From: Gemmatimonadaceae bacterium
GTDB lineage: Bacteria > Gemmatimonadota > Gemmatimonadetes > Gemmatimonadales > Gemmatimonadaceae
DNA length: 64,000 nt
Reading direction: 5' to 3'
NCBI GenBank assembly: GCA_020851035.1
Contig: JADZDM010000007.1
Span: 62,001 to 126,000, forward strand
The notes beneath the pieces were generated by a model. It made no database searches, had not been told where the DNA came from, and worked only from the letters and a program-made list of their open reading frames with translations. Position 1 is the stretch's first letter. Each line of letters begins with the position of its first letter. Both the position numbers and the translations under genes were made by a program. This document shows, piece by piece, positions 54,888-64,000 of this stretch.

Positions 54888-55934
54888 TCAAGCATCGGGG
54901 GGCAGCCGGGGCGGCACGGGGGGCAGGCTGCCCAGCAGCGCGTCGAGCGCCGAGCTCTGGGCGGCCCGCTCGAGCAGTGCCTCCCGGGCGCGCATCGCGT
55001 CGAGGCGCGCGCGCTGCGCGTTGCGCCGGCGGCGGTGGAGGGGTACCAGCAGCGCCAGCAGGAGGAGGGTGCCGATCGCCCCGTCCGCCACGAGGGCCAG
55101 GAAGCCGAAGCTCCAGCGGGTGCGCTGCTGCCAGTCACGCTCGAAATCCCCCGCGGTGACGGCGGCAGCGCGCCGGAGCGCGAGATCGAAGCTCCCGCGC
55201 TCCTTCCAGGCCGCGAGCAGCGGGCCGAGCCCGCGCTCCCGGTCGATGGCCGCCAGGTCGGAGACCGCGCGGAGCGCGAGCGCGTACCCCGCCCTCGCCT
55301 CGCCGCTGCGCGGATTCGAGAGCAGCGAATCGAGGCCGGCAAGGGTGGGCACGCCGCGGAACACCAGCGCGGCGTTGGTGGCGAGGAAGCCCGTGGTCCG
55401 CTCCTCACCGGCGGCGTAGCTGGCGTAGCCTTCGTCGAACCAGCGGGTCGACGCGCCGCCGAGATGGTCGTACAGGGCGAGGTGCGCGAGTTCATGCCGG
55501 AGCACCACCAGCGGATCACCGGCGGACGACGGCGCTCCCCGCCCCTGCATCACGATGCGCTGCTGGCCGACGAAGGCGAGGGCCGCGGTCCAGGGAAAGG
55601 CGGACCGACCGGCCCACTCGGTGAACGTGGCGGCGTCGGGGGCGAGCATCACCAGCACGCGTGCGCCGCTGCGCGGCAACCCCGGGAAGGTGTCCCGCGC
55701 CATGGCGGAGCGCAGCAACGCGTCGGCCAGCGCCGCGTCGGGCGCATAGTGCAGGATGGTGAAGCGGCCGGCATCCCGCCGCAGCGCCCCGGGTGGTGCC
55801 GCCGGCAGCGGCCCGGCGGCCAGCAGCGCACACGCGCCCAGCGCGAGCGCGCCGCACCAGCGCCTCAGGCCACGCGCGAGGGAGCGCCTCCGTCCGCGAT
55901 CGTCACCAGCATCTCCCGGCAGCGGGCACTCCAT
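54888..55934 (-). CDS. Peptidase MA-like zinc metallopeptidase with C-terminal membrane helix
   Basis: About 348 residues. A signal-like hydrophobic stretch (WCGALALGACALLAAG, about 26-41) is followed by a domain with the gluzincin pattern VVLRHELAHLAL (HELAH at 147-151) and WFDEGYASYAAGE, where Glu168 should be the third zinc ligand. This is the layout of peptidase MA family proteins. A membrane helix near 275-300 is followed by a basic, helical cytoplasmic tail of about 50 residues. Substrate unknown. The start is uncertain: ATG 55934 lies 70 bases inside the upstream TPR gene and lacks a Shine-Dalgarno. Confidence 0.75.
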   Translation of the reverse strand: MECPLPGDAGDDRGRRRSLARGLRRWCGALALGACALLAAGPLPAAPPGALRRDAGRFTILHYAPDAALADALLRSAMARDTFPGLPRSGARVLVMLAPDAATFTEWAGRSAFPWTAALAFVGQQRIVMQGRGAPSSAGDPLVVLRHELAHLALYDHLGGASTRWFDEGYASYAAGEERTTGFLATNAALVFRGVPTLAGLDSLLSNPRSGEARAGYALALRAVSDLAAIDRERGLGPLLAAWKERGSFDLALRRAAAVTAGDFERDWQQRTRWSFGFLALVADGAIGTLLLLALLVPLHRRRRNAQRARLDAMRAREALLERAAQSSALDALLGSLPPVPPRLPPDA

Positions 55935-56950
55935 GGATTGAACTTGTTGACGTCGGCTGCCTTGCGCCACGTGGCGATCGCATCGTCGGTGCGCTCCGCG
56001 AACCAGTACACGCGACCCAGCTCGAAGCGGGCCTCGATGAGGTTCGGCCCGAGCTCGATGGCCCGCAGCAGCGCGCCGATCGCCTCGGCGTACTGCTGCT
56101 GCTCGAAGTACACGAGACCGAGGTAGAAGTGCGCGTACAGGGTGGCCTTGCGATCGGTGTCGAGCGCGATCGCACGCGTCAGCAGGGCGATGGCCTGGTC
56201 GAACTGGCGGCGCCGCAGGTGCACGAAAGCGACGTTGATGGTCGCGAGCGCGTGGTCGGGAATGCGATCCAGCACGTGGTCGAACAGGGCCAGCGCCGCG
56301 TCGAACCGCCCCTGCGACATCTGCGCCCAGCCCAGCAGCGTCTCCGCCTGCGCATCGCCGGGGTTGAGCGCGAGCGCCTTCTCCAGCGACTCCTCGGCGG
56401 CGGGATAGTCGCCGGTGGCGATGCGGCTCCAGCCCCGCTCGACGAAGGTGGAGGCATTCAGCTCGTCGATGACGCGCGGCTGCCCCTGCACCGGCGTCCC
56501 GAACGCCGAGCGGACTTGCGGGGCGCTGCGCGGGGTGGGCGTCACCATCGCCGGCGTCGAGACCACGGCCGCGGTGCTGACCGCCGCCTCGTCCTCCAGC
56601 AGCGGGTCAGCCGACGGGAACGAGACCTCGAGTGCGGTCACGGCGCCAGGGGTCTCGACGGGCGACACCGGCGCACCCACGGCCGGCGGCGCGACAACGG
56701 CCGGCGTGGCCGGCGCGGCGGGCACGAACTTCACCTTCCACCCGTCCACCAGCGCCTTCACGTCGTGCTGCAGCGCGTCGATGACCTGCGCGTGCAGCGC
56801 GACGGACCGGTGCAGGAGGAAGATCCGCTGCTTCAGCGCAAGCGCGTCGCTCGAGTCGACGCCTGCCACCGCCAGCTGGCGGGTGAGTTCGTCGACCTGC
56901 GCACGAAGGTGGCTCAGCAGGTCTTCGGCTGAGGGGGGGATGATCGTCAC
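55865..56950 (-). CDS. TPR protein with N-terminal coiled coil
   Basis: A 361-residue protein without a signal peptide. Residues 1-75 form a helical coiled coil (AEDLLSHLRAQVDELTRQLA), 80-145 a Pro/Ala/Val-rich flexible linker, and about 155-350 five or six TPR units (ATGDYPAAEESLEKALALNP, QGRFDAALALFDHVLDRIP, QQYAEAIGALLRAIELGP). It is likely a cytoplasmic adaptor. GTG at 56950 was chosen because CGGAGAG lies five bases upstream; an earlier GTG at 56971 is in frame. It is 214 bases downstream of the DUF4388-TPR gene, so may have its own promoter. Confidence 0.8.
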   Translation of the reverse strand: MTIIPPSAEDLLSHLRAQVDELTRQLAVAGVDSSDALALKQRIFLLHRSVALHAQVIDALQHDVKALVDGWKVKFVPAAPATPAVVAPPAVGAPVSPVETPGAVTALEVSFPSADPLLEDEAAVSTAAVVSTPAMVTPTPRSAPQVRSAFGTPVQGQPRVIDELNASTFVERGWSRIATGDYPAAEESLEKALALNPGDAQAETLLGWAQMSQGRFDAALALFDHVLDRIPDHALATINVAFVHLRRRQFDQAIALLTRAIALDTDRKATLYAHFYLGLVYFEQQQYAEAIGALLRAIELGPNLIEARFELGRVYWFAERTDDAIATWRKAADVNKFNPWSARCREMLVTIADGGAPSRVA

Positions 56951-57163
56951 GTACTCTCCGAAATGCGACACTGCGGCTGCCCGGCCGCGAACCCTCTGGA
57001 CGCGGCTGCTGGAAACAAGAGTATCGGCTGCAGCGATCCGATCACAGACACCGTGCGCGTGCTCCGGGAAGGGTCAGGCCGGGTCGAACGTCGGCGACGG
57101 CACGCGCCGCCACCCCCGTACAGTCGCGCCTGCCAGAATCGTGCGCGCGCATCCGGCGACGGG
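56951..57163. other. Intergenic gap between the DUF4388-TPR gene and the TPR gene
   Basis: About 213 bases with no open frame of merit. On the minus strand a weak -10 like sequence (GATACT, near 57030) is the only promoter-like hint. No tRNA, terminator or repeat was found. Confidence 0.4.
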
Positions 57164-58786
57164 TCAGGAGGCGCGGCGGATGGCCTCGAGGCTGACCTGC
57201 GCCTGCCGGTTCCCCGGATCGAGTTCGAGGACGCGCTGCCAGCACCGCTGGGACTCCACCACCTCACCGCGCTGGTATCGCAATTCACCCAGCTTGAGGT
57301 AGATGTCCGGCCCCAGGGCCGGCTCCAGCCGCACGGCACGCTGGTACGACTCGATCGCGTCGTCGTAGCGCGCGACGCGGTGCGCGAGATCCCCGACCGT
57401 CTTCTGGAACGGCGCGAGGTTCGCCGCGTGGAGCATGCCCCGCTCGACGGCGGCCGCGGCGGCGGTGAGTGCGCCGCGCGTCAGCATCAGTGCCGCGTAG
57501 TTGGCGTGCAGGACGCCGACGGAGGGGTGCGTGCGGATGCCCTCCTCCAGCAGCGCCTGCGCCTGGTCCGCATCGTCCCGCGCCGCCGCCACCAGCGAGG
57601 CGTAGTGGAACCAGATCGCCGGTGGTGCATCGCCGTCGAAGCGCGTGCGCGCCGACGCCAGCAGCTGCTCGGCACGGGCGTAGTCACCGAGGCGGAACGC
57701 GTGCAGTGCGCGGGACAACTCCACCTGCGGCAGCGACGCGCCGCCGATCTGCACCGCGCGCTCGATCATGCGCGCCGCGTCGAGCTCACGACCCAGCCCC
57801 TCGTACGCCAGGGCGAGGTGGTGCAGCATGACCGCACCCGTGTCATCGAGCTGGGCGAGCGGCTCCAGCCAGCCCACCGCGTCGTCCCACGCGCCGCGCC
57901 GCAGTGCGAGCAGTCCGAGCTGATGGCGGGCCGTCGGCTCGTTCGGTGCCGACTCGACCACCTTCCGGAACTCGCGGGAGGCATCCTCGATCATCCCCGC
58001 CTTCGACAGCGCGAGGCCCATCTTCAGTGCCTTCTCGGTGGCGCTGATGCCGGCATCGTGCTCATCGGCCGGCGCCTCGGGCTGCGTGACGGCGATGAGC
58101 AGGCCCTGCGAGTGCAGTTCGTACATCGCCTTGCCGACCGCGAACTCGCCCAGCCCGGAGCGCTCGATCACGGCGCGGATCGAGCGGCGGCCGTCGAGGA
58201 GGTGCGAGACCTCGGCGAGCTCACCGGAGAGCGGATCGGAGAGGCCGGCGCGGGCCGCGTCCATCTCGAAGACCATGTCGAAGCTCGGGAACCGGCGCTC
58301 GACCAGCGACCACTCGTCGGTGCGGCGCGCCCCTTCCATCAGCAGCGACTCGGGGTTGATCGAGACCGTGAGCTGGCGGCCGTCGGGATGCACGTCGGGC
58401 TCGAAGGTCCAGATGCCCTGCGTCCAGGTGAAGAGCGAGAAGACCGCCTCCTCGACCAGCGCCCGCAGCTCCCGGTCCACCACGTCGCGTGAGACGAATC
58501 CCGCCTCGACGAGCAGCTCGCCGAGCCGACGGCCGGGGTGCTGGAGCTGCAGGCGGAGCGCCTCGTCGAGCTGGTCGCGATTGATGTGTCCGCGCTTGAC
58601 AAGCGAGTCACCGAGGCGGTCGCGCCGGTTGACGATCGCCCCGAACGAGATCTTGCCCTGCTGGAAGAACACCGACCCGAACTTGGTGCCGTCGACGATG
58701 CTGAGACAGCCGGTCTTCTGGCCGAGCGCCAGGAGCTGCAGGACGTCGGGGAAGCTCGCTTCCTTGAGACTGCCGCGAATGGCCAT
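57164..58786 (-). CDS. DUF4388 (PATAN)-TPR protein
   Basis: A 540-residue cytoplasmic protein. Residues 1-60 are a DUF4388/PATAN domain (RGSLKEASFPDVLQLLALGQ, then KTGCLSIVDG, FFQQGKISFGAI). Residues 55-150 contain a type II secretion E N-terminal-like segment (RLGDSLVKRGHINRDQLDEAL, then RRLGELLVEAGFVSRD) and a second PATAN-like stretch (VFSLFTWTQGIWTFEPD). Residues 180-235 look like a winged-helix (LLDGRRSIRAVIERSGLGEFA). From 245 to 535 there are about eight TPR units. DUF4388 proteins are often linked to two-component and motility signalling. ATG 58786 overlaps the AAA+ gene stop by one base. Confidence 0.85.
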   Translation of the reverse strand: MAIRGSLKEASFPDVLQLLALGQKTGCLSIVDGTKFGSVFFQQGKISFGAIVNRRDRLGDSLVKRGHINRDQLDEALRLQLQHPGRRLGELLVEAGFVSRDVVDRELRALVEEAVFSLFTWTQGIWTFEPDVHPDGRQLTVSINPESLLMEGARRTDEWSLVERRFPSFDMVFEMDAARAGLSDPLSGELAEVSHLLDGRRSIRAVIERSGLGEFAVGKAMYELHSQGLLIAVTQPEAPADEHDAGISATEKALKMGLALSKAGMIEDASREFRKVVESAPNEPTARHQLGLLALRRGAWDDAVGWLEPLAQLDDTGAVMLHHLALAYEGLGRELDAARMIERAVQIGGASLPQVELSRALHAFRLGDYARAEQLLASARTRFDGDAPPAIWFHYASLVAAARDDADQAQALLEEGIRTHPSVGVLHANYAALMLTRGALTAAAAAVERGMLHAANLAPFQKTVGDLAHRVARYDDAIESYQRAVRLEPALGPDIYLKLGELRYQRGEVVESQRCWQRVLELDPGNRQAQVSLEAIRRAS

Positions 58787-60705
58787 CAGTCGGCGTCCTC
58801 GATCAGGCGGGCGGTGAGGTCGGGCCAGCGGTGCACGAAGTTCTCGGTGTCGCCCATGAGGTGTCGCGTGCCGCGCCGCGGCGCCGCGGCGCCATCCAGC
58901 TCCGCCGCCACGAAGGCCGGGGTGATCGGTGCACCGGCCAGTGCCGCCGCCGCGTGCAGGCGCCGCACCACGTTCAGGACATCACCCACGGATCGCGCCG
59001 GCCGGTCGGCGAGGTGCGAGACGACCTGGTCGCTGACGATGGTGTGGTGCGTGTCGAAGTACTGGTGGATGAGCGCCGCGCGTTGTGCGATGTCGGGGCT
59101 GCCCAGCTCGACGACGAGGCCCTGCGCGAAGCGCGTGCGCAGGCGGTCCTCGAGCGTCGCGAGCTGGTTCGGCGGCACACTCGAGGTGAGCACCACCTGC
59201 CGGCCGGCACTCTGCAGCGCGTTGAACAGGTGGAAGAGCTCATCCTGCGTGCGCTCCTTCCCGGCGACGGCCTCGATGTCGTCGAGCAGCAGCGCGCCGG
59301 CGTTGCGATAGCGCGCGCGCCACTTCTCCACCGCCCCCTCGCGCAGCGCGGTGATGAGCTGCTCCGCGAAGACCGAGGCGCCGACGCAGGCCACCGTCTG
59401 CACGCCGGCGTCGATGAGCGCGTTGCCGATGGCATGGAGCAGGTGCGTGCGACCGCTGCCCGAGGGGCCGGTGATCACCAGCGGCACGTACTGCGTGCCC
59501 GGCGCGCCGACCACCGCACGGGCCGCGCGGAGCGCGAGCTGGTTGGCGCGACCCTCGTGCAGGCCGGCGAAGGTCCACGCCGGCTCCGGGCGCGGCGGCG
59601 GCTCGATCGCGCTCACGGCCTGCTGCACCAGCGCGTGCGCCTCCTTCACCCGCTCCGGATCGCGGAAGATGGCCTGGCCGCTGAGCGAGGCATCGGCCGC
59701 CGACCCTTGCCGCTCGAGGTCGCGCAGGTACTCGACGGCGGCGCCGAAGGTGGCGAGCAGGCCGTCGACGTCGGGCGCCTCGCGCAACTGGAGCGCACGA
59801 TCGAGCACCGCCACGCTGATGCCCTCGGCCCGCCAGCGCGAGGCGGCATCGGCCAGGCGCACGCGCCACTCCTCGACCTGCTCGACCACGGCCGTCGCGA
59901 CTTCCTGCACGAAGGTGTCGTAGTCCCCCGGACGCGGGGCCGGCTCGACCTCGGCCTCGGCGTGGATGATGACGTTCGCGAGCGGCGTGTGTCCGCGCAG
60001 CCCGACCAGCCGGCGCACGTCGGAGACGCCGATGGCGGCGTCACTCATGCCCTGCAGCGCGAGCAGCCGGTTCAAGCCGCCCTGCAGCTCGCGGATGTTC
60101 GAGAAGTCCACCCGCGCCAGCTCCTCGAGCACGCCGTCACGGAACCGCGCCGCACGCTCGGCCTGGAGCTTCTGCAGGATCGCGACCCGCGTCTCGTAAT
60201 CGGGGATGCCGACGTCGACGATCAGGCCGCCGGTGAGCCGTGTGAGCAGGCGGTCGGTGACGTCGGTGATCTCGTCGGGCGGCCGGTCGCTGGACATGAC
60301 GATCTGCGTGCCGCGCCCCTGGAGCACGTTGAAGAGGCGCAGCAGCTCACCCTGCACCTCGGCGCGGCCGGTGAGGAACTGCACGTCATCCAGCAGCAGG
60401 ATGCCGGCCGATTCGTAGCGTCGCTTGAACGTGTCGAGCCGTCCGCCTTCGGTGGCCTGGTGGAACTCCTCCATGTAGTCATCGAGCGCCACGTACTCGA
60501 CGCCGAGGGAGGGCTGCTTGTCGCGCGCAGCATGGCCCACCGCGTGCATCAGGTGCGTCTTGCCGAGGCCGGACGCGCCGTACACGAAGAGCGGGTTGTA
60601 CAACACACCGGGTGCGTCAGCGACCGCCTTCGCGGCTGCGACGGCGAGGCGATTGGACGAGCCGGTGACGAACGAATCGAAGCGGAGGCGTTGATCGAGT
60701 TTCAT
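58786..60705 (-). CDS. Tandem DnaA-type AAA+ protein without a DNA-binding domain
   Basis: A 639-residue protein with two DnaA-like AAA+ modules. Module 1 (about 8-235) has FDSFVTGSSNRLAV, Walker A GASGLGKT at 43-50, Walker B ILLLDDVQF at 102-110, VMSSDRPPDEI at 136-146, and the sensor 2 block NIRELQGGLNRLL at 203-215, all close to DnaA domain III. Module 2 (about 376-600) has GPSGSGRT at 413-420, where Arg replaces the Walker A Lys, an intact LLLDDIEAV, and RLRTRFAQGL. A helical linker (about 245-370) joins them. DnaA domains I and IV are absent, as is an Hda-type clamp motif. It is one base from overlapping DUF4388-TPR. Function unknown; not a replication initiator. Confidence 0.85.
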   Translation of the reverse strand: MKLDQRLRFDSFVTGSSNRLAVAAAKAVADAPGVLYNPLFVYGASGLGKTHLMHAVGHAARDKQPSLGVEYVALDDYMEEFHQATEGGRLDTFKRRYESAGILLLDDVQFLTGRAEVQGELLRLFNVLQGRGTQIVMSSDRPPDEITDVTDRLLTRLTGGLIVDVGIPDYETRVAILQKLQAERAARFRDGVLEELARVDFSNIRELQGGLNRLLALQGMSDAAIGVSDVRRLVGLRGHTPLANVIIHAEAEVEPAPRPGDYDTFVQEVATAVVEQVEEWRVRLADAASRWRAEGISVAVLDRALQLREAPDVDGLLATFGAAVEYLRDLERQGSAADASLSGQAIFRDPERVKEAHALVQQAVSAIEPPPRPEPAWTFAGLHEGRANQLALRAARAVVGAPGTQYVPLVITGPSGSGRTHLLHAIGNALIDAGVQTVACVGASVFAEQLITALREGAVEKWRARYRNAGALLLDDIEAVAGKERTQDELFHLFNALQSAGRQVVLTSSVPPNQLATLEDRLRTRFAQGLVVELGSPDIAQRAALIHQYFDTHHTIVSDQVVSHLADRPARSVGDVLNVVRRLHAAAALAGAPITPAFVAAELDGAAAPRRGTRHLMGDTENFVHRWPDLTARLIEDAD

Positions 60706-60789
60706 GGGGTCTGCGGTGTCCAGCCAACGACGACTGGCCTACCGGATTGGGCACTTGAGTCCGCTTGCCCAACAACCGTACAGCTCACC

Positions 60790-60814
60790 TGCCTGGCACC
60801 TGCTCACCCAGGCA
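60790..60814. other. Inverted repeat in the gap before the tandem AAA+ gene
   Basis: TGCCTGG (60790-60796) and CCAGGCA (60808-60814) form a 7-base inverted repeat with an 11-base loop in the 155-base gap between the Roadblock gene and the AAA+ gene. There is no T-run, so it may be an operator or an mRNA structure. No DnaA-box-like TTATCCACA is present in the gap. Confidence 0.35.
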
Positions 60815-60860
60815 ACATGGCTACCCCGTCAATCTACCGCCACGTCCCCGACTCCAGCCG

Positions 60861-61205
60861 TCAGCCGAGGCCCTGGGCCAGCCGGCGCATGGTGAGCCGG
60901 AGCAGGCCGAGGTTGGTCCACGGCTCGGCGACGGTCACGAGGAGGAGATCGCCCTGCGGGACGGCGCACACGCGGCCGCGCTCGCCTTCGAGGTGGAGGA
61001 AGCCCGGCTCGGTGCCGTCGGCGGCGGTGGCGGCGAGGGCGGCCCGCGCGTAGAGGCGCGCCGCGAGGGCGGCGATGGCATCGGCATCGGTGCCGATGTG
61101 GACGTTGCCATCGACGACGATCCCGTCCGTCCGGGAGACCACCAGTGCCGCATGGACGCCGGCGGTATGCATGAGCTCCTCGACCACGCGGTCGTAATTC
61201 GCCAT
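60861..61205 (-). CDS. Roadblock/LC7 domain protein (MglB-like)
   Basis: A 114-residue single-domain protein. The order helix (NYDRVVEELMHTA), strand pair (VHAALVVSRTDGIVVDG), long helix (DADAIAALAARLYARAALAATAA), strands (FLHLEGERGRVCAVPQGDLLLVTVA) and helix (LGLLRLTMRRLAQ) is the Roadblock/LC7 fold. Such proteins dimerise and often act on Ras-like GTPases, as MglB does on MglA; no GTPase is in the window. ATG 61205 is preferred because TGGAG lies seven bases upstream; ATG 61217 would overlap the stop of the gene above (TGATG). Confidence 0.82.
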   Translation of the reverse strand: MANYDRVVEELMHTAGVHAALVVSRTDGIVVDGNVHIGTDADAIAALAARLYARAALAATAADGTEPGFLHLEGERGRVCAVPQGDLLLVTVAEPWTNLGLLRLTMRRLAQGLG

Positions 61206-61216
61206 GACGGACTCCA

Positions 61217-62050
61217 TCAGAAGCCGTCCGCGGCGGCCCGCGCCGTCGCGACCCGGAGGAGGGCCCGCACGCGGCCGATCGGGACCTGCCGGCCGACGCT
61301 CAGCACCGTCAGCGACCCGGCAGGTGCCGGTGCCAGGGCGAGCGTGTCGCCGGCCGTCTCGAGCACCAGCGCGTGCCAGGCCCCGAGGTTCAGGTGCTTC
61401 ATCGCACGCGCGGCGTCATCGCCGACACCGGCGACGGCGGCGGCCATCGCCTCGAGCACCGCCATGTCGTCGGACGGCTGCGGACTCGCGAGCAGCAGGC
61501 CGTCGGCATCCGCCACCAGCGACCGCACGACCTCCGGCCGTGCCGGCGCCGAGGCAATGGTCGCAGAGAAGCCCGAAATGGCAGGATACGAGGCGGTGGG
61601 ATACGCCGCGCCGGTGGTGCGACCGTTCGGGATCCGTCCCGGCTCCACGCGCGTGTTCACCCTGGGCGTGAAGCGGTGCCCGTTCGGCATGCCGCCGTTC
61701 GGCCCATTGGATGCGGCCGCGCCGTTGCCGTCGGCGCCCGAATAGCGGTCGGGCGTGGGCGGTGCGCCGCCGTTGCCGTGGCCATGCGCCGGCGCCGGTT
61801 CGTGCTGCCGCGCGCGGTCCCAGTGTGCCGATGCGGCGGACAGGTCGCCGCGTGCTTCAGCGATGCGCGCGAGCACCATCAGTGCGGGCGCGTGCGAGGG
61901 GTGACGTTCGAGGCCGCGCGTCGCGAGGCGCTCGGCGGTCTCGAGGTCGCCCTGTTGCCGCAGTGCCTCGGCCAGGTCCGCGAAGACGAGACTCTGCGGA
62001 TCGGTCGCAAGCACACTGCTCCAACGGCGGATGTCGTCAGCTGCCGGCAT
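61217..62050 (-). CDS. TPR protein with a C-terminal Roadblock-like domain
   Basis: A 277-residue protein in three parts. Residues 1-82 form two TPR units (FADLAEALRQQGDLETAERL, then MVLARIAEARGDLSAASAHW). Residues 83-150 are a Gly/Asn/Pro/His-rich flexible linker. Residues 165-277 read like a Roadblock/LC7 domain: VVRSLVADADGLLLAS, a helix DMAVLEAMAAAVAGVGDDAA, strands HALVLETAGDTLALAPA and LTVLSVG, and a final helix VRALLRVATARA. It overlaps the downstream Roadblock gene region by one base and the upstream DUF4388 gene by 14 bases. Confidence 0.75.
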   Translation of the reverse strand: MPAADDIRRWSSVLATDPQSLVFADLAEALRQQGDLETAERLATRGLERHPSHAPALMVLARIAEARGDLSAASAHWDRARQHEPAPAHGHGNGGAPPTPDRYSGADGNGAAASNGPNGGMPNGHRFTPRVNTRVEPGRIPNGRTTGAAYPTASYPAISGFSATIASAPARPEVVRSLVADADGLLLASPQPSDDMAVLEAMAAAVAGVGDDAARAMKHLNLGAWHALVLETAGDTLALAPAPAGSLTVLSVGRQVPIGRVRALLRVATARAAADGF

Positions 62051-63179
62051 GGGCGGAGATCAGTTCCTGTAATTGCGCCGCAGCGTCGCGTGCGATCCGC
62101 ACCCGCGCCGCATCGGGCGCCGTTGGTGCTGCTGCAAGATAGTGCTCCCACGCGCTCAGCGCCGCACGGTACTCCCCGCGGCGGGCTGCCACGTAACCGA
62201 ACTGTTCCTGCGCCTCGGGCAGGAGCGGATCGAGCTGTACCGCAGTCCGCACCTCCTCCGCCCAGTCGTCGGGGCGGCCGAGGCCCAGCAGCGCGCGTCC
62301 GGCGAGGACGTGCGCGGCGGCATTCCGCGGCGCATGCCCGATGGCGGTGCGGGCGGCGGCGAGCGCGGCCTCGAAGCGGGACTCGGCCAGCGCCCGGCGC
62401 GCCTGCGCGGTGAGCATCGCGACGCCGGCCGTGGCCTCCCCGTCGTCCCGGGTGGCCCCCTGCGCATCGGTGGTGAGCGCGCCCAGCGCCGACCACCGCG
62501 AGATCCAGCGCGCGGTCTCGAACACGCGCATCCCTGCCGCGGAGGCGATCTGGCGGATGGTCCGGCATCCGTCCACACAGGAGAGCACCCGCCAGCCGTC
62601 GGCGGGCACGGCGAGCTCCCCGTCCCCGTCACAGTCGCAGACCAGCGGCACCGCGCCCAGCGACCCGATGCGGGCCTCGATCGCCGGCCACTCGTCGCGG
62701 CGACGTGCCGCATCGAGGAAGAGCTCCTCCCCGGACAACGTGAGGCTGGTGGTGGGCTCGAGGGCGCTGGCGGACTCGCCGTCGGTGAAGGAGAACGAGC
62801 CCTCGTCGAAGGTGGTGAGCTCGAAGCAGAGGTCGTCGATCAGCCGCCGCGCGACCGTATCACGCATCCGGGCACTGATGACCCCGGTCTCGACGAGGCC
62901 ATCGACGAGCGAGCGTGGTGGAGTCTGGCGGCTGGCCCAGGTAGCCGCCGCGCCGCGATCGTCGGCATCCACGAGTCCGGCGTGCGTGAGCGCCCCGAGC
63001 AGCGGTTCGGGCTCGTCGTCCCAGCGCGCCGCCGTGATGGACCCGTCGAGGAATCGCAGGATCGCCCCGCGCGCGCCGGCCCCGCCGGTCACGCGGAGCG
63101 TGCCGGAGCGACGGCCACCGGTCAGCAGCTGGAAGACCTCGGCCAGCCCGAGGTCGCGAAGTGCCCCCTCGAGTGCCAT
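62037..63179 (-). CDS. DUF4388 (PATAN)-TPR protein, second copy
   Basis: A 380-residue protein. MALEGALRDLGLAEVFQLLTGG and RSGTLRVTGG with AILRFLDGSITAARWDD (1-60) are a DUF4388/PATAN domain. A second half (about 70-145) has LVDGLVETGVISARMRDTVARRL and CFELTTFDEGSFSFTDGE, mirroring the other DUF4388 protein here. A winged-helix-like part (CVDGCRTIRQIASAAGM) is near 215-245, and three TPR units lie at about 265-375. ATG 63179 overlaps the stop of the upstream TPR gene by one base. It is shorter than the 540-residue paralogue by several TPRs. Confidence 0.82.
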   Translation of the reverse strand: MALEGALRDLGLAEVFQLLTGGRRSGTLRVTGGAGARGAILRFLDGSITAARWDDEPEPLLGALTHAGLVDADDRGAAATWASRQTPPRSLVDGLVETGVISARMRDTVARRLIDDLCFELTTFDEGSFSFTDGESASALEPTTSLTLSGEELFLDAARRRDEWPAIEARIGSLGAVPLVCDCDGDGELAVPADGWRVLSCVDGCRTIRQIASAAGMRVFETARWISRWSALGALTTDAQGATRDDGEATAGVAMLTAQARRALAESRFEAALAAARTAIGHAPRNAAAHVLAGRALLGLGRPDDWAEEVRTAVQLDPLLPEAQEQFGYVAARRGEYRAALSAWEHYLAAAPTAPDAARVRIARDAAAQLQELISAHAGS

Positions 63180-64000
63180 CAGCCCGTTCCCCGCCGCACG
63201 GAATCGATGATCACGGGGGTCTGCGGCACCGCAGCATCGTCGTACTCGGCGAGCGCGAGCCGCGCCCGTGTCGCCCATCGGTTCTCGCCGTTCGCGCCGC
63301 CGCTCCGGGTGGCGACGCGCCAGTGCGCCAGCGCCTCGGACTCGCGGCCGGCGCGCTGCGCCATGTACCCCTGCAGCGTGCGCACCCCCGCATGGTCCGG
63401 TGCAACGGCGGCGGCCCGGGCGATCGCATGCAGCGCCTGCTCCTCACGATTCAGCGCGAGCAGCGCCTCCGCGAGCGCCACCAGCAGGTCCGGATCACGG
63501 GGATTGGCGCGCAGCGGGCGCACCAGCGCCTGCATGCCGTCGCTGGGCCGGCCCACATCCACGCGCAGCTCGGCCAGCGCCCGCGCGGCATCGTGGAACG
63601 TCGGCACGCTCTCGAGGGCGTGCATCAGCTCCTTCTCCGCCTCGCGGACGCGGCCATCCTCGCGCAGCATCGCGGCGAGCGCCACGCGCACCTGCGCCAG
63701 GTCCGGGTCGCCGGCCAGGGCCGTGCGCAGCGCGCTCTCGGCATGCCGCATGACGACGGACGCCGGCGGCATCGGCGCCACCGCCTGCGCGCTGTGCGCC
63801 GTGCGCGGCGCCGGCTCCATGATCGCGAGCTGCGGCCCCGTGACACGGCGCAGCGGGATCACCGGCGTGCCGTGCGTGACACGCATCGAGACAGGGGTGC
63901 CGCCGCGGCGCAGGGCCACCCAGGCCCCGAGTGGCGTGCGGGAGCGAGTGGTATGTGGTGCCTGGCGGGCCTCGGCGGACTCGCGGATGGCGGCCCGCAT
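63179..64000 (-). CDS. TPR-repeat protein, possibly truncated by the window edge
   Basis: At least 273 residues. An ATG falls exactly on the last three bases of the window, so the true start may lie beyond. The first 85 residues are low in structure, with a short strand-rich part (PVIPLRRVTGPQLAIME). From about 86 to 255 there are four or five TPR units (AESALRTALAGDPDLAQVRVA, EAEKELMHALESVPTF, QALHAIARAAAVAPDHAGV, SEALAHWRVATR). It begins the visible part of the DUF4388/Roadblock/AAA+ run and is joined to the next gene by a TGATG overlap. Confidence 0.75.
   Translation of the reverse strand: MRAAIRESAEARQAPHTTRSRTPLGAWVALRRGGTPVSMRVTHGTPVIPLRRVTGPQLAIMEPAPRTAHSAQAVAPMPPASVVMRHAESALRTALAGDPDLAQVRVALAAMLREDGRVREAEKELMHALESVPTFHDAARALAELRVDVGRPSDGMQALVRPLRANPRDPDLLVALAEALLALNREEQALHAIARAAAVAPDHAGVRTLQGYMAQRAGRESEALAHWRVATRSGGANGENRWATRARLALAEYDDAAVPQTPVIIDSVRRGTG

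Follow-up and report, generated by a model that had tools for sequence, protein, structure and literature searches.

The window analysed here is a stretch of 64,000 nucleotides, positions 62001-126000 of contig C7 in the genome (G000) of a Gemmatimonadaceae bacterium. At 55865-64000 it holds seven open reading frames on the minus strand; the ORF list and Pfam confirm all seven, along with the same-strand arrangement and the domains that a sequence-only reading had assigned to them (Table 1). The one-base TGATG overlaps described in that reading are seen at three junctions (TPR/DUF4388a, TPR-Robl/Robl and AAA/DUF4388b), and DUF4388a and TPR-Robl overlap by 14 bases. The two junctions that do not overlap, of 155 bp and 192 bp, are the exact sites at which relatives carry robl2 with mglA and cheR-cheD-cheB, respectively. 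A Peptidase_MA-like gene (window positions 54888-55970) is conserved after TPRc; its true start probably lies further downstream, because the start as listed gives an overlap of 106 bases with TPRc.

Table 1. Genes, gaps and motifs of the run, listed from the window edge inwards (positions of the window).
Feature	Position	Strand	Basis and remarks
Long TPR protein, 3' part, cut by window edge	63179..64000	-	Pfam TPR; full gene 829 aa, L004:9179-11668
DUF4388(PATAN)-TPR protein a (DUF4388a)	62037..63179	-	Pfam; insertion MshEN-like in relatives, degenerate here
TPR + Roadblock/LC7 protein (TPR-Robl)	61217..62050	-	Pfam PF03259
Roadblock/LC7 protein (Robl), 118 aa	60861..61217	-	Pfam PF03259
Gap, 155 bp, Robl to AAA	60706..60860	-	Second Roadblock gene (robl2) and mglA at this place in relatives
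Tandem DnaA-type AAA protein, 639 aa	58786..60705	-	Pfam Bac_DnaA x2; AAA1 motifs intact; AAA2 Walker A Lys -> Arg
Linker AAA1-AAA2, ~residues 250-378	59572..59958	-	Begins with conserved [ED][FY]..F helix
C-terminal tail motif of AAA protein	58789..58848	-	EK.VW.WP....R.IEE in relatives; ENFVHRWPDLTARLIED in window protein
DUF4388(PATAN)-TPR protein b (DUF4388b), 540 aa	57164..58786	-	Pfam
MshEN-type c-di-GMP motif pair in DUF4388b, residues 57-110	58457..58618	-	Candidate by motif; final Gln of second motif is Leu here
Gap, 192 bp, DUF4388b to TPRc	56972..57163	-	cheR, cheD, cheB and cheW genes at this place in relatives
TPR protein c (TPRc)	55865..56971	-	Pfam TPR; kept at downstream end of cluster

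The seven-gene run extends beyond the window edge into cheC, cheA, cheY and cheW, and is probably the downstream half of a longer operon. The long TPR gene reaches ~1.7 kb past the window edge, and upstream of it, on the same strand, lie cheC, cheA, cheY and cheW (1.7 to 7 kb past the edge), followed by rluD, lspA, dksA and ileS. At this locus (L004) Pfam confirms CheC, CheW, the TPRs and a full CheA; the names of CheY and of rluD to ileS were assigned by reading the sequences and served as labels in similarity searches. The che genes make up a Che system, comprising a CheA with Hpt, dimerisation, ATPase and CheW-like domains, CheW, and CheY (the last by sequence and similarity only). The sequence-only reading had stated that no receptor, GTPase or response regulator lies within the window, which is true, yet the four che genes stand just beyond its edge. 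It had also proposed looking past position 64000 for an MglA-like GTPase or further DUF4388 genes. The only MglA-like GTPase is on contig 25, and the two DUF4388 genes of the window were the only ones found in the genome. Receptors are available, with nine MCPsignal matches in the genome, none of them inside the cluster, and the genome of G013, a relative that carries the cluster, gave no MCP match.

Conservation of the neighbourhood was assessed by searching the AAA protein in 395 genomes of the phylum and fetching 35 loci, from several families, that carry the AAA gene. In these AAA-selected loci DUF4388b stands directly after AAA in 35 of 35, and MglA directly before it in 31, the four others being two loci of family f5, the locus from the window's genus and one at a contig edge. 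Among 65 loci with a labelled slot gene (the slot being the position between mglA and DUF4388b), a set that includes loci picked by MglA matches, DUF4388b comes next in 64, the remaining one being cut at the locus end, and mglA precedes in 59; all loci were chosen via AAA or MglA matches. The order cheW, cheY, cheA, cheC, long TPR, DUF4388a, TPR-Robl, Robl, Robl2, MglA, AAA, DUF4388b, cheR, cheD, cheB, cheW, TPRc recurs across genera and families, in assemblies named Gemmatimonadetes or Gemmatimonadaceae. Three Roadblock proteins are typical, and cheR, cheD and cheB are often, not always, part of the cluster. The gene-neighbourhood check suggested earlier has thus found the module kept in many genera of Gemmatimonadota. 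A few relatives carry a gene for an ExeA-like AAA_22 ATPase between cheB and cheW (e.g., L041:18006-18806), and in L038-L043, L050, L065 and L066 two adjacent frames upstream of rluD match LspA, a possible tandem lspA. In L051 (G013), L124 (G065), L121, L240 and L249 the che part is degenerate, with a CheA of ~500 aa or none found; these clusters are without cheR, cheD and cheB, yet CheY and the MglA-slot-DUF4388b core are present.

The flanking ileS-lspA-rluD order is conserved as well; therefore, synteny alone is weak evidence. The che genes and the DUF4388/AAA genes could on this ground be mere neighbours with separate functions in a slowly rearranging region, and two f5 loci (L063 and L064), in which AAA-DUF4388b lies between rluD and pepMA and che genes are absent, would fit such an arrangement. 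However, stops and starts overlap, presence and absence are shared with MglA and PilT across 94 f5 genomes (see below), and L240 and L249 keep a core of CheY, long TPR, DUF4388a, TPR-Robl, MglA, slot gene and DUF4388b although other che genes have been lost. We consider mere neighbourhood unlikely. Of the 30 loci with both rluD and pepMA, 24 carry a cheA label and 26 an mglA label.

The distribution of the AAA family outside the phylum was also scanned. A single scan of genome contigs was flooded by true DnaA, with 80 loci of which only six had the linker, all from Gemmatimonadota. A shallow search with the linker only gave no match in 26 genomes reached via other-phylum loci and matched three Gemmatimonadota controls. 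A restriction of the family to Gemmatimonadota does not follow from scans of this depth.

Compared with its relatives, the window's genome has a reduced version of the cluster. Linked mglA, a Roadblock gene (robl2), cheR, cheD and cheB have all been lost from it, and the same-genus locus in G281 is likewise without linked mglA, robl2, cheR and cheB, with cheD retained. An MglA polarity module would include a linked MglA GTPase, which the relatives have (the 59 of 65 loci above) and the window's genus does not, and a Roadblock/LC7 (MglB-like) partner with a predicted GAP role, which is present as PF03259 at 60861-61217 and 61217-62050. In each of G000, G281 and G393, a paralogue (E ~1e-63 to cluster-type MglA) is the sole MglA match. 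In the window's genome this separate gene (L112:10001-10687, contig 25) has a Roadblock-like neighbour and directly follows genes reading as dnaX, ybaB and recR; its type is seemingly that of the phylum's general MglA.

The closest PDB match of AAA1 is DnaA (1.5e-55), an entry that we take to be from B. subtilis, and AAA2 weakly matches Hda. The protein thus carries the AAA domain of DnaA domain III, and the Pfam scan found no DnaA C-terminal DNA-binding domain IV (PF08299) in it. The whole protein scores 187.2 bits against the Hda model TIGR03420 (cut-off 194.8) over two matched stretches. Hda, the DnaA inactivator, has a single AAA domain and an N-terminal clamp-binding motif. AAA1 has intact Walker A and B motifs in all 42 tandem proteins; in AAA2, Walker A is intact in 37 and Walker B in 35 of the 42, and both loci of the window's genus have arginine in place of the Walker A lysine. 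A tree of 100 domains places AAA1, AAA2 and the DnaA of Gemmatimonadota in one group each, with support of 100/97 or better. PADLOC was run on five proteins; the AAA protein drew only weak hits to generic ATPases and the remaining four drew none, and a defence system was rejected.

The AAA domains are not a constant part of the slot gene. Of 72 untruncated slot genes, 47 encode two AAA domains, 14 encode one and 11 encode none, where 72 of 74 were counted (L126, a locus cut off, and L152, at a contig edge, were left out, and L112, the separate MglA locus, was dropped) and where the classes of L039, L042, L046, L051, L054, L120, L121, L244 and others come from motif and domain tallies, the automatic choice of frame being wrong there. 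Two of the 11 AAA-less genes retain the linker (185 and 213 aa), and the other nine encode mini proteins of 69 to 81 aa that consist of just a short helix (EF..F) and a C-terminal WP tail. With a strict form of the tail pattern, matches are confined, among the labelled genes of the cluster, to 29 AAA frames. Because dN/dS of the mini gene is 0.15 to 0.45 in four comparisons, it is evidently coding and under purifying selection. On the MglA tree, the minis of g3 and g14 form one clade (100/93) and L236, L233 and L248 stand apart from it, so that AAA losses occurred more than once. AlphaFold models of MglA-mini and mini-DUF4388b read-through chains gave pLDDT of ~62 to 82 for the helix and ~50 to 71 for the tail, and no confident docking of the tail on either partner. 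By these comparisons, the AAA domains derive from DnaA and are optional, and the short helix and WP tail are the constant parts, seemingly a new observation.

These data bear on the idea of a DnaA/Hda-like replication regulator in the AAA protein, with an operon that would tie polarity to the cell cycle. The PDB matches of both domains and the invariably intact Walker motifs of AAA1 speak for this idea, but a regulator of this kind is hard to reconcile with a protein that has no DnaA C-terminal domain, while each of 13 genomes checked carries exactly one match to that domain (a separate gene in the window's genome), that falls into clades separate from DnaA, and that has dropped AAA in 11 of 72 untruncated slot genes with helix and tail retained. 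We rejected a link to replication or division on these grounds and regard the regulator as highly improbable. Of the earlier proposal of a spatial control complex possibly linked to replication or division, the first part is supported, given the conserved MglA/Roadblock-type module with mglA before AAA, and the second is not, AAA having been dropped in several lineages and a DNA-binding domain being absent.

The insertion in the window's DUF4388b matches NCBIfam NF053729, an MshE-related c-di-GMP motif, with 53.8 bits (cut-off 38), and matches MshE (2.6e-5) and PilF (8.3e-5) in the PDB. An MshEN-type match at E <= 1e-3 is found in 56 of 64 DUF4388b proteins, and the arginine of the first motif is present in all 57 of 57 that have the insertion. 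The two tandem 24-residue motifs that define MshEN (excerpt of PMC5013675) are present, with the glutamine of the second motif absent in the window's protein. A relaxed version of the published pattern occurs at least once in 47 of 70 DUF4388b and 29 of 63 DUF4388a frames; among the other 13 labels tallied, it occurs in one long-TPR and one CheA frame. The helical insertion thus matches as a candidate MshEN-type c-di-GMP-binding motif, which also seems to be a new observation. A PATAN insertion was reportedly described by Makarova in 2006.

All DUF4388b proteins examined carry this insertion, those of the AAA-less L233, L236 and L248 included, except in the eight g3/g14 mini loci. The slot is reduced to ~70 aa in a clade whose following gene has also lost the c-di-GMP insertion; since g3 and g14 form one clade, the joint loss of AAA and insertion counts as one evolutionary event, and the link between mini slot and insertion loss is suggestive but not strong. 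Loss of c-di-GMP signalling was rejected as an explanation of the missing insertion, genomes of the mini clade still having 5 to 10 GGDEF matches.

The presence of the cluster follows type IV pili, not flagella. Of 41 genomes tested, 38 have PilT over the cut-off, among them all 26 with an AAA or mini gene; flagellar FlhA scores over its cut-off in only seven of these 26, and flagellar control was rejected, 19 of the 26 being without FlhA over the cut-off. Within family f5 (94 genomes), the most variable of the families, MglA (E <= 1e-65) occurs in 32 of 37 genomes with AAA vs. three of 57 without, and one PilT type (E <= 1e-170) in 30 of 37 vs. two of 57; the thresholds, including the PilT type, were chosen after seeing the scores, the rows were transcribed by hand and the genomes are not independent. 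With any PilT (E <= 1e-100) the association is weaker (35 of 37 vs. 35 of 57, p = 2e-4, under the same reservations). Co-occurrence with the pilus motor, as expected of a system for type IV pilus control, is seen both in the 26 genomes and in the f5 association. In f5, MglA is seemingly of the general, unlinked type and not of the cluster type. PilT is also present without the cluster in some genomes (e.g., G021 and G017). Genus g87 offers two genomes well suited to comparison: G116 has AAA, MglA and PilT, and in G118 AAA is absent, MglA matches only weakly (1e-22) and PilT stays below the cut-off.

The run is probably the downstream half of an operon whose signals tell the pili of a soil bacterium where to pull, with copies of a DnaA-type ATPase domain as an optional part. 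From the genome context, we find it reasonably likely that this is a chemosensory-polarity operon controlling type IV pili, in which the AAA gene encodes an MglA/DUF4388 adaptor. CheA, CheW and CheY would supply the chemosensory signal, with CheC as CheY-P phosphatase, and MglA and its Roadblock partners would set the active pole. The long TPR protein may be SgmX-like and join MglA-GTP to the pilus machine, and the DUF4388 proteins may read c-di-GMP via the MshEN-type insertion and act on the pilus motor as cyanobacterial PATAN proteins do. The slot product would be the adaptor between MglA and DUF4388b, and its DnaA-derived AAA1, linker and AAA2 an ATP-dependent assembly element that was repeatedly lost. 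Che signalling and c-di-GMP would then meet at the set of MglA, slot protein and DUF4388b, acting with the long TPR protein on the pilus motor. In the window's genome, where linked mglA has been lost, the adaptor may use the separate MglA of contig 25, or may work only with DUF4388b and Che.

Within such a pilus control operon, the slot protein might instead be a GAP-like or GEF-like regulator of MglA and not a DUF4388b adaptor. This would suit the position of mglA immediately upstream in 59 of 65 loci and the Roadblock genes adjacent in many, but family f5 and the window's genus retain the slot gene and DUF4388b without a linked mglA, and the constant partner is DUF4388b (64 of 65 loci, the other cut at the locus end), which makes an MglA regulator improbable. 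The adaptor reading can be taken further, although in this form it is tentative and rather doubtful: a new adaptor family of short helix and WP tail would tie MglA to a c-di-GMP-sensing DUF4388 protein, duplicated DnaA ATPases would make that link ATP-driven, and chemosensory and c-di-GMP signals would choose the pilus-bearing pole. If true, the ATPase domain of a replication initiator was recruited into cell-polarity signalling, and gene order would directly tie type IV pili to MglA, chemosensing and c-di-GMP in Gemmatimonadota. Since relatives naturally have two, one or no AAA domains, comparing them can test what the ATPase does.

The module had been proposed as undescribed, which holds for some of its parts. 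MglA near PATAN/DUF4388 genes is in print (excerpt of PMC4316618), and PATAN proteins are listed in M. xanthus (excerpt of PMC11580455); a literature search, with most subscription journals outside its scope, found no published description of the AAA gene of the cluster or of the c-di-GMP link, and no publication on twitching control in Gemmatimonadota.

Among known systems, the MglA/MglB-Frz-SgmX-pili system of M. xanthus resembles the cluster in its MglA family (1.7e-74 between the relatives' MglA and that of M. xanthus), Roadblock proteins, chemosensory genes and long TPR protein; SgmX of Myxococcus has 14 TPRs (excerpt of PMC7668184). The Gemmatimonadota genes differ in lying in one operon and in including DUF4388 with an MshEN-type insertion and a DnaA-type AAA gene. 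The cyanobacterial PATAN-CheY regulators PixE, PixG and LsiR, which act on PilB1 (excerpts of PMC7690835, PMC9090330 and PMC5812497), share a DUF4388/PATAN domain encoded in a chemosensory operon and a proposed pilus motor target, whereas the PATAN domain is here joined to TPRs instead of a receiver, with cheY a gene of its own. The MshEN domain of MshE and of PilF/PilB-type ATPases has the same two tandem RLG..L...G......L...L..Q motifs; in the cluster they are embedded in DUF4388, the spacer is six and not five residues, the last glutamine is missing in the window's protein, and binding is predicted. Finally, the AAA protein is like DnaA domain III in its AAA family and its Walker and sensor motifs, but unlike DnaA it is tandem, has no domain IV, carries an extra linker and a WP tail, is encoded in an operon with mglA and forms a separate clade.
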